From contig JAQGHR010000149.1 in assembly GCA_028291545.1 (NCBI GenBank), positions 1 through 64,000 of the forward strand: 64,000 nucleotides of DNA, in the 5' to 3' direction. Source of the DNA: Planctomycetota bacterium. Lineage in GTDB: Bacteria; Planctomycetota; Planctomycetia; Isosphaerales; Isosphaeraceae. The notes under the pieces are model-generated. The model had not been told where the DNA came from, made no database searches, and worked only from the letters and a program-made list of their open reading frames with translations. Both the position numbers and the translations under genes were made by a program. Positions 49,616 through 54,111 of this stretch are shown piece by piece; the first letter of the stretch is position 1, and each line of letters starts with the position of its first letter.

Positions 49616-51037
49616 TCAGCCCAGCAACCCCTTGACCACCTTGCCCCCATTGACGGTGAGTCGCTCGTCTCGCCCGTCGCGGGGGAAGGTGAGCTTGAGG
49701 TGATCCATGCCCATCAGATGCAGGATCGTGGCGTGCAAATCGTGGACGTGGACCTTGTCCTCGACGGCGCGGAGGCCGAACTCGTCGGTCGTGCCGATGG
49801 TCTGGCCGGCTTTCACGCCGCCGCCTGCCATGAACATGCTGAAGCCGTAGGGGTTGTGGTCCCGGCCGTCGGACCCTTCGTTCATCGGAGTCCGGCCGAA
49901 CTCCCCGCCCCAAAGCACGAGCGTGTCGTTGAGCAACCCGCGCCGTTTCAGGTCGGTGATCAGGGCCGCAACGGGCTTGTCGCTCCGGGGGCAGAGCCGT
50001 CCGTGGTTGCCTTCCATGTCCCGGTGCGCATCCCACTGACTGCCCGATCCGCAATACAGTTGCACGAACCGCACCCCGCGCTCGACCAGGCGACGGGCTC
50101 GCAGGCACATCGCGCCGAACTCCTTGCATTTCGGGTCATCCAGGCCATAAAGCGTCTTCGTCTCGGCCGATTCGGTCACGAGATCCACGGCTTCCGGCGC
50201 GGTGGACTGCATCCGATACGCCAGTTCGTACGACGCGATCCGCGCGGACAGTCGCGTATCGTCCGATCGGGATTCCGCATGCTTTCGGTCGAGATCGGCG
50301 ATCAGGTCGAGCTTGGCGCGCTGCCTCTTATCGGAGACGGACTTCGGCGGCGCCAGGTGCAAGATCGGAGCCCCGTCCGGCCGAAAGGGGGTGCCCTGAA
50401 AGGTCGCGGGCAGCCAGGCATTGCCCCAGTTCTTCGGGCCTCCGACGGGTTCGGCGGCGTCGGCCATGACCACGAACGCGGGCAGATCCTGGTTCTCGGT
50501 GCCCAGCCCGTACGTGACCCACGCCCCCAGGCTCGGCCGGCCCGCGAGGATGCTGCCCGTGTTCATCTGGCAGACACTTCCCACGTGATTCACGCCGTCC
50601 GCCCAGCATGAGCGGATCAGGGCGATGTCGTCGGCCACCTTGGCGAGATGCGGATACCAGTCCGAGACCCACAGGCCGCTCTCGCCATGCTGAGCGAACT
50701 TCCTCTTGCTCGCCATCAGCGTGTTTCCGCCCACGCCCATCGGCGTGAACACCTTCCCGAAGCTCGGCGGCAGCGGCTTCCCCGCGTTCTTCGTCAGTTC
50801 CGGCTTCGGGTCGAACAGGTCGATATGACTCGGCCCGCCCTCCATGAACAGGAAGATGACGCTCTTCGCCCTCGCCTTGAAATGCGTCGTCCTCGGCGCC
50901 AGCGGCCTCCCCGCCTCGATCTCGGGGATGTCGGCTGTGGCGCTCTCGTTCAGCAATGACGAGAGGGCGAGCGACCCGAAGCCGAGGCCGGCGCGGAGGA
51001 AGAATTCGCGGCGGGAAGAGGTCCATTCGGTGTGCAT
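49616..51037 (-). CDS. DUF1501 protein (Tat-exported)
   Basis: A 473-residue protein of the DUF1501 family, related to the alkaline-phosphatase/sulfatase fold. The N-terminal 'SRREFFLRAGLGFGSLALSS' is a Tat signal. Landmarks include 'SVIFLFMEGGPSHIDLFDPKP', 'HVGSVCQMNTGSILAGRPS', 'FGAMCLRARRLVERGVRFVQ', 'DTLVLWGGEFGRTPMN' and 'GRDHNPYGFSMFMAGGGVKAG'. In planctomycetes it almost always follows a DUF1549/DUF1553 gene as a pair. Here the partner lies upstream (51934-54111) with two small genes between. I chose the ATG at 51037 over the adjacent GTG. The function is unknown; a periplasmic or surface degradation role is often proposed. Confidence 0.92.
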   Translation of the reverse strand: MHTEWTSSRREFFLRAGLGFGSLALSSLLNESATADIPEIEAGRPLAPRTTHFKARAKSVIFLFMEGGPSHIDLFDPKPELTKNAGKPLPPSFGKVFTPMGVGGNTLMASKRKFAQHGESGLWVSDWYPHLAKVADDIALIRSCWADGVNHVGSVCQMNTGSILAGRPSLGAWVTYGLGTENQDLPAFVVMADAAEPVGGPKNWGNAWLPATFQGTPFRPDGAPILHLAPPKSVSDKRQRAKLDLIADLDRKHAESRSDDTRLSARIASYELAYRMQSTAPEAVDLVTESAETKTLYGLDDPKCKEFGAMCLRARRLVERGVRFVQLYCGSGSQWDAHRDMEGNHGRLCPRSDKPVAALITDLKRRGLLNDTLVLWGGEFGRTPMNEGSDGRDHNPYGFSMFMAGGGVKAGQTIGTTDEFGLRAVEDKVHVHDLHATILHLMGMDHLKLTFPRDGRDERLTVNGGKVVKGLLG

Positions 51038-51092
51038 CACTGAGATTGTCTCACCTTGTCTGGACGTCTGCCCTATTGGCCGTCGGACGTCC

Positions 51093-51425
51093 TCAACGTC
51101 TCGGACTTACATCCAAAATCACTTGGTCAATGACTTCGTCGATCTTGTAAGCATCTCTCCGAGCCAACGAGTATAGCCGGTCGACAGGGGCATAATGTTC
51201 CTTGTTCTCCGTCGATGAAAACGTTTCGAGTTCCAGCACCTTACCGGTGCCGTCGTAAAGTGTGACGTAATAGTCACCGTCTCTACCTTGTGAGATACGG
51301 ACCATCGCCCGAGTGAGACGCGCGAGAAAGGTGTCGTCGTCATCCTCGCCCCATGCCAATCGTCCCTGCTCAGTCGCGGTGGCGAGGTGTTCGATCATCT
51401 GGATGAATTTGGGACTTGTCGCCAT
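51093..51425 (-). CDS. Small hypothetical protein (accessory gene 2 of the intervening cassette)
   Basis: A 110-residue soluble protein not recognised as a known family. It is acidic in the middle ('LAWGEDDDDTFLARL'), with 'DGDYYVTLYDGTGKVLELETF' suggesting beta-strands and 'LYSLARRDAYKIDEVIDQVI' a C-terminal helix. GGAGG lies seven bases before the ATG at 51425 and overlaps the 3' end of the preceding gene, whose TGA is one base from this ATG. The two genes are therefore one translational unit. By eye the composition is less GC-rich than the flanking genes, hinting at acquisition. Confidence 0.65.
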   Translation of the reverse strand: MATSPKFIQMIEHLATATEQGRLAWGEDDDDTFLARLTRAMVRISQGRDGDYYVTLYDGTGKVLELETFSSTENKEHYAPVDRLYSLARRDAYKIDEVIDQVILDVSPRR

Positions 51426-51426
51426 T

Positions 51427-51912
51427 TCAAACCTCCAATGTCTCGGATCTCCGCCCCTCTTGTGCCTTCCCAAGCATGGCAATTACGTTATGAAGGCGGC
51501 GAGAGAATCTCGGCGGGACCGACTTCTCTGCGCTTGCTTTTCTCAATTTCTGTACATGCGCAAGTAGGTCGCCGAGATCATTTAGGGTAGCGCGAACCAA
51601 CGTCACTTCATCCGCTAATAGCCTTTGATTTGCTCCCAGTTGTGATAGAGCGACTCGAGCGTCATCACAACGGTCTTGTACGTCATCCCAACGGAAGGAT
51701 CGGCAGGCTGAATCAATCTGTCGAACGGTCTGAAGGGCAACTGAGACATTTTCGGCGAATAGCTGGGCCTTTATCCGGGCTAAGGCTTCTTCAGCTACGC
51801 GTCGGGCTCTGCGTACACCATGAATTGTAACAGCAAACCCCACGAAAGTAACCACGAGGCCGAGGACGCTCGCGATGTCTCCGTAATGCTCTCGGAAGTA
51901 GGGAAGCAGCAT
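51427..51912 (-). CDS. Small membrane-anchored hypothetical protein (accessory gene 1 of the intervening cassette)
   Basis: A 161-residue protein. One N-terminal TM helix ('IASVLGLVVTFVGFAVTIHGV') is followed by a cytoplasmic Arg/Ala-rich helix ('RRARRVAEEALARIKAQLF') and a long, mostly helical region ('VALQTVRQIDSACRSF', 'LRKASAEKSVPPRFSRRL') that may form a coiled coil. No family was recognised. It ends one base before the start of the 110-residue gene and begins 21 bases after the DUF1549/1553 stop. Its codons look less GC-rich than those of its neighbours. Confidence 0.65.
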   Translation of the reverse strand: MLLPYFREHYGDIASVLGLVVTFVGFAVTIHGVRRARRVAEEALARIKAQLFAENVSVALQTVRQIDSACRSFRWDDVQDRCDDARVALSQLGANQRLLADEVTLVRATLNDLGDLLAHVQKLRKASAEKSVPPRFSRRLHNVIAMLGKAQEGRRSETLEV

Positions 51913-51933: not shown

Positions 51934-54111
51934 TCAATCCACGAACACAAACTCATTCACATTCAGCATCGCATGGCAGAAATCCGCCAGCGTCTCGGTC
52001 ATCTTCCCCCCACTTTTCGCCACAAACGCCACTCCCTTCTCCCTCTCCATCGTATCCGGCTCTCGTCCCAGCGCGAGCCGATACACCCGCGTCACCAGCG
52101 CGGCCGGATCGTCGGTTCCAACCTCTTTGCGAACCCTGGACGCGAACGCCCTGGCCGAATCCAGGATCAACTCGGAATTCAGCAGCATGAGGGCCTGGGG
52201 CGCATTCACGGAGACGTTGCGCTCGGGGCACGTCACGTTGGGGTCGGGGGCGTCGAAGGCATCGAAGAGGGGATACTTCAAGTTGCGGCGGGAAAATACG
52301 TAAATGCTCCGCCGGTTGCGATCGGAGGCCTTCTCCGATCGTGTCCAGCCGCCTCGGGTTTGAACGCCGGGGGGTAGGTCGGGGAAGACGCTGGGGCCGC
52401 CGATCGTGGGGTTCAACTGGCCGGAAACGGCGAGCATGGCGTCGCGGACGGCTTCGCCTTCCAACCGATGGCGGGGCATGCGGCCGAAGAGGGTGTTCTC
52501 GGGATCGTCGTCCAGGGTCTTGGCCGGGGGAGTGCTGGATTGGCGGTAGGTGGACGAGGTGACCATCAGCCGGTGCATGGCCTTCATGCTCCAGCCGCGG
52601 GCGATGAACTCGGTGGCCAGCCAGTCCAGAAGCGGGGCGTTCGAAGGCCCAGAACCCTGGGTGCCGAAGTCGCTGGGCGTGGCCACGATGCCGCGGCCGA
52701 AATGACCCTGCCAGAGGCGGTTGACCATCACGCGAGACGTCAGGGGATGGTCGGCACGGGTGAGCCACGATGCCAGGGCGAGACGGCGCTTCGTGGATCG
52801 ATCATCCGGAGCTGAAGACGAGGCAGACGGAAGGCCCGATGAGTTCAAGACCGAGAGGAACCCCGGCGCAACCTCCTCGACGGGCTGGCCAAACGTGCCC
52901 TTGCGGAGCAGGAACACGGGCGGGGCCTTGGGGCCGCGATCGGTCATGCCGCTGGCGGACGGAAGCTCGGCGGGGGACTGCTTGGCGAGCAATTGCATCC
53001 GGCTCGTCATCGTCTCCCAGCGCTTGAGCTCGGCCGGGGACATCGCGGCTTTCATGAGCCTGGGATCGACGGTCATCAGCTTGGCGTTCTTGGCGAGCAG
53101 GTCTTCCTGGAAGGCGGATCGCTTGGCGGGCTCGGTCTCGATGGCCTTGCGCACGTCGGGCGGAAGTTTGCCGAGCTTGTCCTTCAAGAGACGGACCAGA
53201 TGCGGTTGTTCGACGCCGTTCAACGCCTTCTTCACCGCGTCCACCTTCTCGCCGTGCGCCGCCGACACGAACCGATGCACGGCCGCGTCGAATGGGTTGG
53301 CCAGAGTGCGGTCGTCCTTCGGCGCCGTGGCGGCGAACAGGGCTTCGATGCGGTAATAATCCTTCTGGCTGATCGGATCGTACTTGTGGTCGTGGCAGCG
53401 GGCGCAGCCGACCGTGAGGCCGAGGAAGACCGACGAACTCGTGTCGGTCATGTCGTCGAGCATGAGCTGCTGGTTCAGCCCCGGCACCATGTTGTTGTCT
53501 TCGAACGGATAGTTGCGGTTGAAACCGGTGGCGATGAAGCTGTCGGGATCTTCGGGCGCCACCTCGTCTCCGGCGAGCTGGAGCGAGACGAACCGATCGT
53601 AGGGAAGATCGGCGTTCAGCGCCTTGATCACCCAGTCCCGGTAGCGCCAGGCGTTGGGGCGTGTCTTGTCGCTCTTGAAGCCGTCGCTCTCGGAGTAGCG
53701 GGCCAGGTCGAGCCACGGCCTCGCCCAGCGCTCGCCGTATTCGGGCGAGGTGAGCAGGCGATCGACGAGATGCTCGTAGGCGTCGGGCCGCACGTCGGCG
53801 AGGAACGTGTCGACCTCGCGAGGCGAGGGGGGCAAGCCGGTGAGATCGAACCGCACGCGGCGAATCAGGGCCAGCTTGTCGGCCTCGGCCGCCGGGGAGA
53901 GGCCGACGTCTTCCAGGTCCTTGAGGATGAAGCGATCGATCGGGTTGCGGGACCAGTCGCTTCGCGTCGTCGCCGGAACCGCCGGCCGTTTCGGGGGGAG
54001 GAACGCCCAGTGCGTCTTCTGGGCCTCGCTCCAGGAGGGTTCGGGAACCCCTGCCGAGGCTGCTGCGAGACTCAGCGAGACAAGCACCAGGGCCAGGCCG
54101 ATTCCTCGCAT
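51934..54111 (-). CDS. DUF1549/DUF1553 domain protein
   Basis: A 725-residue exported protein with signal peptide 'GIGLALVLVSLSLAAASAG'. The DUF1549 domain (about 55-260) has 'NPIDRFILKDLEDVGLSPA', 'LIRRVRFDLTGLPPSPREV' and 'SSSVFLGLTVGCARCHDHKYDP', whose CxxCH could bind haem. The DUF1553 domain (about 400-690) includes 'LASWLTRADHPLTSRVMVNRLWQGHFGRGIV', 'DWLATEFIARGWSMK' and 'NVSVNAPQALMLLNSELI'. It lacks the N-terminal PSCyt1 cytochrome domain found in many relatives. GGGAGAG precedes the ATG. It normally works or is co-transcribed with DUF1501, found 0.9 kb downstream. Confidence 0.93.
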   Translation of the reverse strand: MRGIGLALVLVSLSLAAASAGVPEPSWSEAQKTHWAFLPPKRPAVPATTRSDWSRNPIDRFILKDLEDVGLSPAAEADKLALIRRVRFDLTGLPPSPREVDTFLADVRPDAYEHLVDRLLTSPEYGERWARPWLDLARYSESDGFKSDKTRPNAWRYRDWVIKALNADLPYDRFVSLQLAGDEVAPEDPDSFIATGFNRNYPFEDNNMVPGLNQQLMLDDMTDTSSSVFLGLTVGCARCHDHKYDPISQKDYYRIEALFAATAPKDDRTLANPFDAAVHRFVSAAHGEKVDAVKKALNGVEQPHLVRLLKDKLGKLPPDVRKAIETEPAKRSAFQEDLLAKNAKLMTVDPRLMKAAMSPAELKRWETMTSRMQLLAKQSPAELPSASGMTDRGPKAPPVFLLRKGTFGQPVEEVAPGFLSVLNSSGLPSASSSAPDDRSTKRRLALASWLTRADHPLTSRVMVNRLWQGHFGRGIVATPSDFGTQGSGPSNAPLLDWLATEFIARGWSMKAMHRLMVTSSTYRQSSTPPAKTLDDDPENTLFGRMPRHRLEGEAVRDAMLAVSGQLNPTIGGPSVFPDLPPGVQTRGGWTRSEKASDRNRRSIYVFSRRNLKYPLFDAFDAPDPNVTCPERNVSVNAPQALMLLNSELILDSARAFASRVRKEVGTDDPAALVTRVYRLALGREPDTMEREKGVAFVAKSGGKMTETLADFCHAMLNVNEFVFVD

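Follow-up and report, generated by a model that had tools for sequence, protein, structure and literature searches.

Two small genes, here called A and B, lie between a DUF1549/DUF1553 gene and a DUF1501 gene in the window, by which we mean the whole 64,000-nt stretch of DNA analysed. All four genes are on the minus strand, in the order DUF1553, A, B, DUF1501. The upstream neighbour (51934..54111, minus strand; 725 aa) matched the Pfam families PSCyt2 and PSD1 with E-values of 6e-84 and 1e-92, and the downstream neighbour (49616..51040, minus strand; 474 aa) matched DUF1501 at 2e-158; both belong to the host operon and lie outside the module. Gene A (51427..51912, minus strand) encodes a 161-aa single-pass membrane protein, assigned from its ORF and from homologues found by sequence and profile, while gene B (51093..51425, minus strand) encodes a 110-aa soluble protein, assigned from its ORF, an AlphaFold model and 32 homologous loci found by profile. 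A preliminary description had proposed that two genes split a DUF1549/1553-DUF1501 pair, and the ORFs, their order and the TGA-A-ATG junction between them, together with the Pfam assignments of the neighbours, bear this out.

The spacers are short: 21 bp from the DUF1553 stop to the start of A, 1 bp from the stop of A to the start of B, and 52 bp from the stop of B to the start of DUF1501. The coupling junction (51423..51436, minus strand) consists of a GGAGG in the end of A, the TGA stop, a single A and the ATG start of B. This GGAGG (51432-51436), a ribosome-binding motif, falls within the final codons of A, 6 nt ahead of the ATG. A second possible start for B, an in-frame upstream TTG, would yield a 129-aa ORF; the 110-aa ATG start is favoured because of the ribosome-binding motif and the homologues, in which the ATG of B lies either 4-14 nt inside the end of A or 1-8 nt beyond it, one lineage having longer overlaps of 98-113 nt. 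The region scanned contained no Rfam RNA and no promoter-like or terminator-like sites, and because no such site intervenes, DUF1553, A, B and DUF1501 look like a single transcription unit.

Protein features and base composition

Protein A has a short N-terminus followed by one membrane helix (residues 10-34; 51811..51885, minus strand; Kyte-Doolittle maximum 2.14), with a net charge of -1 before the helix and +2 after it. Positive charges follow the helix in nearly all homologues, the helical region beyond carries a conserved tryptophan, and extra hydrophobic segments occur in the homologues of G181 and G336. The orientation of membrane proteins is governed by the positive-inside rule, from which we predict that the N-terminus of A is outside and that its long helical arm is cytosolic. 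The structure model of A, built from sequence alone, was all-helix and of low confidence (pLDDT 51), which made it too poor for a structure search and left no A-B interface predictable.

Protein B contains an invariant tryptophan and a near-invariant threonine within the motif T..G.L.W. Its middle is beta-rich, and (L/F)..ARRSA lies in its C-terminal helix. The AlphaFold model of B, computed from two sequences, consists of a helix, five strands and two helices (pLDDT 76, pTM 0.70) and was the single good one out of five. A fold search with this model against the PDB gave no significant match (best E 0.18, TM 0.34), and a viral fold match (best E 1e-3, TM about 0.5 or lower) was taken as chance. 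In G282, which has two more copies of B, one B (L030:5059-5700, plus strand) carries a fused C-terminal addition of about 90 aa.

Scans of A and B against Pfam, NCBIfam, PADLOC and PHROGs assigned neither to a family, and PDB profile searches returned only coiled-coil or chance matches, in agreement with the earlier statement that neither protein could be recognised. When homologues were scanned with Pfam, PADLOC and PHROGs, scattered sub-threshold matches appeared (TSCPD, DHC_N2 and holin families), each in at most two members, and were rejected. A weak match to LeoBC (PADLOC, E 5e-4) occurred in one of ten A proteins and was not repeated in others. No known toxin, antitoxin or defence protein in the databases searched matched A or B, and no paper on the pair was found in open-access text.

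The pair was also described as less GC-rich than its flanks, and its GC content is indeed 0.529 (52.9%), compared with 0.657 (65.7%) for the window. It is the GC-poorest stretch of its length there, with fewer than 0.1% of 820-bp segments as low and no other stretch of equal length at or below 55%. However, low GC proved a poor sign of recent import. Relative to the mean of the flanks, GC was lower in A at 19 of 19 loci and in B at 23 of 24, and it was also low in the G208 lineage, where related species have the insertion slot in common. Since the module is low in GC across loci, its composition is no clock for recent import and is largely a property of the module itself.

Probable gain at the operon gap and distribution of the pair

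Orthologues of the DUF1501 gene in genomes of the same family are 73-81% identical and lack A-B in front. The orthologous junction is empty in nine of these genomes, where the distance from the DUF1553 stop to the DUF1501 start is 37-140 bp; in the source genome it is 896 bp. Neither A nor B was found in 44 other same-family genomes searched, indicating that the pair is not a constant member of this operon across the family. Because the junction is empty in nine relatives, we conclude that the source genome probably acquired A-B at this DUF1553|DUF1501 gap. The ends of the insert carry no terminal repeats or target duplication, only short, chance-like repeats, and no recombinases were present among the immediate neighbours.

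The source genome (6 Mb, 78% complete) contains 52 DUF1501 and 39 DUF1549 matches, which represent a very large family of paralogues. Among 26 DUF1553-to-DUF1501 neighbour pairs checked in this genome, the gap was at most 255 bp in 24, and the sole real insertion was A-B, so the split is as unusual as had been supposed. A long gap at L058 was rejected as an insertion, the DUF1553 protein there being merely longer: this protein (L058:2967-4232, minus strand; near C60:152376) ends in a long extension at its C-terminus, similar by eye to a LamG-like carbohydrate-binding domain. Across relatives, the gap ahead of DUF1501 takes unrelated inserts. In G018, G031 and G024 a different gene precedes the orthologous DUF1501 (L102:582-1436, L103:465-1397 and L099:341-1417, respectively), encoding a protein of 284-358 aa that has a zinc ribbon, low-complexity sequence and a membrane helix and stands beside DUF1553 in G018 and G031.

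An initial single-protein search of relatives gave two credible A homologues, each followed by a B-like gene overlapping its end. Profile searches of class Planctomycetia then found B in 16 of 398 genomes (including a weak match in G374, later dropped) and A in 23 of 398 (including a spurious one in G028); matches in G374, G028 and G048 were rejected as weak or as lying within long ORFs. After removal, A was present in 22 genomes of the class, with B directly downstream every time and no A locus without B. A wider B profile matched 19 of 95 genomes of family f3 and 8 of 170 of family f2; in the source family, 1 of 45 genomes has B. In all, 32 B loci were read in Planctomycetia, mostly with A just upstream and overlapping, and some genomes carry multiple diverged B copies (three in G282, two in G285). 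The survey was made within the phylum Planctomycetota on mostly draft genomes, one per species, and in a 392-genome sample of the phylum no match fell outside the class. Searches of plasmids and phages by tblastn and one scan of viral contigs also found nothing, and a separate scan of genome contigs gave only the record of G219 itself.

Across 17 loci, distances among A proteins correlate with those among B proteins (Mantel r=0.78, a value that none of 2000 permutations reached). We are highly confident that A-B is a real, co-inherited unit present at many places. Identity between loci is low, about 20-30%, as would be expected if A and B were fast-evolving housekeeping genes, or random ORFs, that share no conserved function. 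That explanation is already contradicted by the strong profile matches, by the strict co-occurrence and order of the genes, by dN/dS far below 1 and by the correlated distances, which leave it highly improbable. The suggestion that an interacting pair was inserted as a unit can be divided accordingly: B follows every A and the distances are correlated, upholding the unit, and empty sites support the insertion, while a physical interaction between A and B is something we infer. Of the two outcomes named in advance as refuting, neither occurred: the operon lacks the pair in the other genomes of the family, and the GC of the pair lies well under that of the window.

The pair does move together elsewhere, as the 32 B loci lie behind varied host genes. 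Flanks were listed at 21 loci, and ten flank proteins were identified by Pfam. The gene ahead is usually on the same strand, 13-75 bp away, and may be an acyl-CoA dehydrogenase (f3 lineage), GltD-like (in the order GltD-A-B-RpiB-like), a 3-keto-disaccharide hydrolase, MoxR (at about 200 bp) or another gene; in G305 it is presumably serine hydroxymethyltransferase-like, as recognised by eye from its start. In the G208 lineage, DUF1501 is ahead of the pair and DUF1549/DUF1553 behind. At four loci (G214, G219, G228 and G256) the neighbour in front is on the opposite strand, so that host transcription is often but not always borrowed. The slot can be filled in one relative and empty in another: among 30 acyl-CoA dehydrogenase loci, 6 had A-B or B. 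Genes starting with MTEAEW (for example L022:5113-5892, plus strand) follow several of the acyl-CoA dehydrogenase genes, whether A-B is present or not; these look like one repeated planctomycete family, and the slot seems generally permissive.

The pair stands beside DUF1501/DUF1549 genes of different paralogue groups in the window, G327, the G208 lineage, G314 and G118. The DUF1501 genes adjoining it in G118, G208, G314 and G327 are nearest to paralogues of the source genome other than that of the window itself, indicating that the association arose more than once; placement beside such genes occurred independently at least four times. This is above chance (four of 17 at 3.5%, P about 0.003, a rough and post hoc estimate) and could mean that A-B is an accessory of the DUF1549/DUF1553-DUF1501 operon that regulates or assists its proteins. 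However, most other contexts lack DUF1501/DUF1549 genes (GltD, MoxR, 3-keto-disaccharide hydrolase, acyl-CoA dehydrogenase and the opposite-strand neighbours), and the source genome has a single A-B pair against 51 further DUF1501 copies. We regard such a role, already weakened by these observations, as quite unlikely.

Selection, divergence and asymmetric loss

Values of dN/dS in close pairs were 0.12-0.16 for A and 0-0.07 for B, showing that both genes are under purifying selection; the values of about 0.12 (A) and 0.07 (B) in close homologues indicate that both are real genes. They nevertheless evolve far faster than the host gene ahead of them. Between G118 and G238 the host gene in front is 90% identical, compared with 31% for A and B; between G208 and G073 the host gene is 84% identical, compared with 57% for each of A and B; and in further pairs A/B identities of 39-69% stand against 75-87% for the host gene. 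Fast divergence fits an arms race and, together with the patchy distribution, fits a role in conflict, which falls short of proof.

The same features would suit a two-gene anti-phage defence system, in which A would be a membrane effector harming the cell once it is infected and B a sensor or inhibitor. Patchiness (16 of 398 genomes by B, and 23 of 398 by A before spurious matches were removed), fast divergence, the combination of a membrane protein with a soluble partner, and the frequent inactivation of A are all in keeping with this possibility. However, no PADLOC match held across members, no defence-island genes were seen beside the pair at the 21 loci with listed flanks, which are metabolic or DUF1501/DUF1549, and viral or plasmid copies were not found. 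These results lend no positive support to the earlier suggestion of a defence-like module, and we consider anti-phage defence unlikely.

B is intact at all 32 loci, while nine of them have an A that is disrupted or truncated, or no A at all. Five of these nine have lesions in place: a nonsense mutation in G093, frameshifts in G219, G070 and G073, and multiple lesions in G314. What is left of A in G327 is an intact 44-aa ORF (L028:5416-5550, minus strand) that retains only the membrane helix and ends 1 nt before B; as in the window, this remnant of the pair lies between DUF1549/DUF1553 and DUF1501 genes. A is absent and B stands alone in G055, G247 and G282c. If damage were equal per codon, the sparing of B in eight cases of damage to A would have P=0.016, and the same formula gives about 0.01 for nine cases, although the count is small, the loci are not all independent and some lesions are possibly sequencing errors in draft genomes. 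This asymmetry, in which B remains intact, A decays and A is never alone, is the main ground for proposing that A depends on B. An antitoxin-like or inhibitor-like B would fit, but so would a B that works alone with A as its anchor.

On the latter explanation, the work would be done by B, as a small sensor or adaptor domain, and A would mainly serve as a membrane anchor or receptor that is dropped where tethering is not needed, with B continuing in the cytosol. The constancy of B (32/32), its stronger purifying selection in the tested pair (0.07 vs 0.12), its presence by itself at three loci, the retention in G327 of the membrane helix of A alone, 1 nt before B, and the added C-terminal region of one B in G282 are consistent with this. 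However, the cytosolic arm of A is conserved and selected at most loci, beyond the needs of an anchor, and the helix in G327 could not tether B if the arm were its binding site. We judge B as the working part to be a credible explanation, but not a likely one.

A candidate accessory module and its relation to known systems

Our preferred reading, offered tentatively and drawn from sequence comparison, is that A-B is an undescribed two-protein accessory module in which B may control or stabilise the membrane protein A. A would sit in the inner membrane, N-out and C-in, with its cytosolic helical arm as the active or signalling part. B would be translated from the message of A by translational coupling and would bind the arm, holding it inactive or stable. 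A without B would be harmful or useless, and hence never kept alone, while B without A would be harmless and hence could persist. Toxin-antitoxin and effector-inhibitor pairs follow such a logic; the role of A-B would probably be in stress or conflict, and its expression would often be borrowed from the host operon. Against this reading of A-B as a B-controlled module are the absence of plasmid or phage copies, unlike many toxin-antitoxin pairs, the lack of any recognised toxin, antitoxin or defence protein among the matches, and the small, partly non-independent count of asymmetric losses, some of which may reflect sequencing errors. A bolder proposal, that A-B represents a new class of chromosomal selfish or conflict module that slips into gaps of host operons, borrows their expression and combines a membrane effector with a new-fold soluble partner to which it is addicted, is conceivable, though we think it rather improbable.

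What began as two unrecognised ORFs is now a defined family of protein pairs, read at 32 loci, that occupies an unusual habitat in the short gaps of host operons. Should A turn out to be toxic or protective, it would be a new type of membrane effector in planctomycetes, a group about whose conflict systems little has been learned. Should B be the active part, it would be a small domain for which the PDB fold search found no structural relative.

Comparison with known systems places A-B close to several of them. With the DUF1549/DUF1553-DUF1501 (PSCyt/PSD) operons of planctomycetes it shares a location, as the window copy and at least three more lie inside or beside them, but unlike the parts of these operons it is missing from nearly all of them and is present behind many other genes. 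Like type II toxin-antitoxin operons, A-B comprises two small, translationally coupled genes that are co-inherited and patchy, and the putative antitoxin B outlasts the putative toxin A. Unlike in those operons, the putative toxin is a membrane protein that carries a long helical arm, no known toxin or antitoxin fold or family was recognised, B has no match to a DNA-binding family, and the pair has no plasmid copies and often no promoter of its own. Membrane effectors paired with a regulator or immunity protein in bacterial conflict systems differ in other respects, since A-B has no PADLOC match, no recognised nuclease, NTPase or nucleotide-sensing part, and no defence island. Nevertheless, A-B resembles such pairs in combining a single-pass protein that has a cytosolic helical part with a small soluble partner, in its fast divergence, and in the frequent loss of its membrane component.
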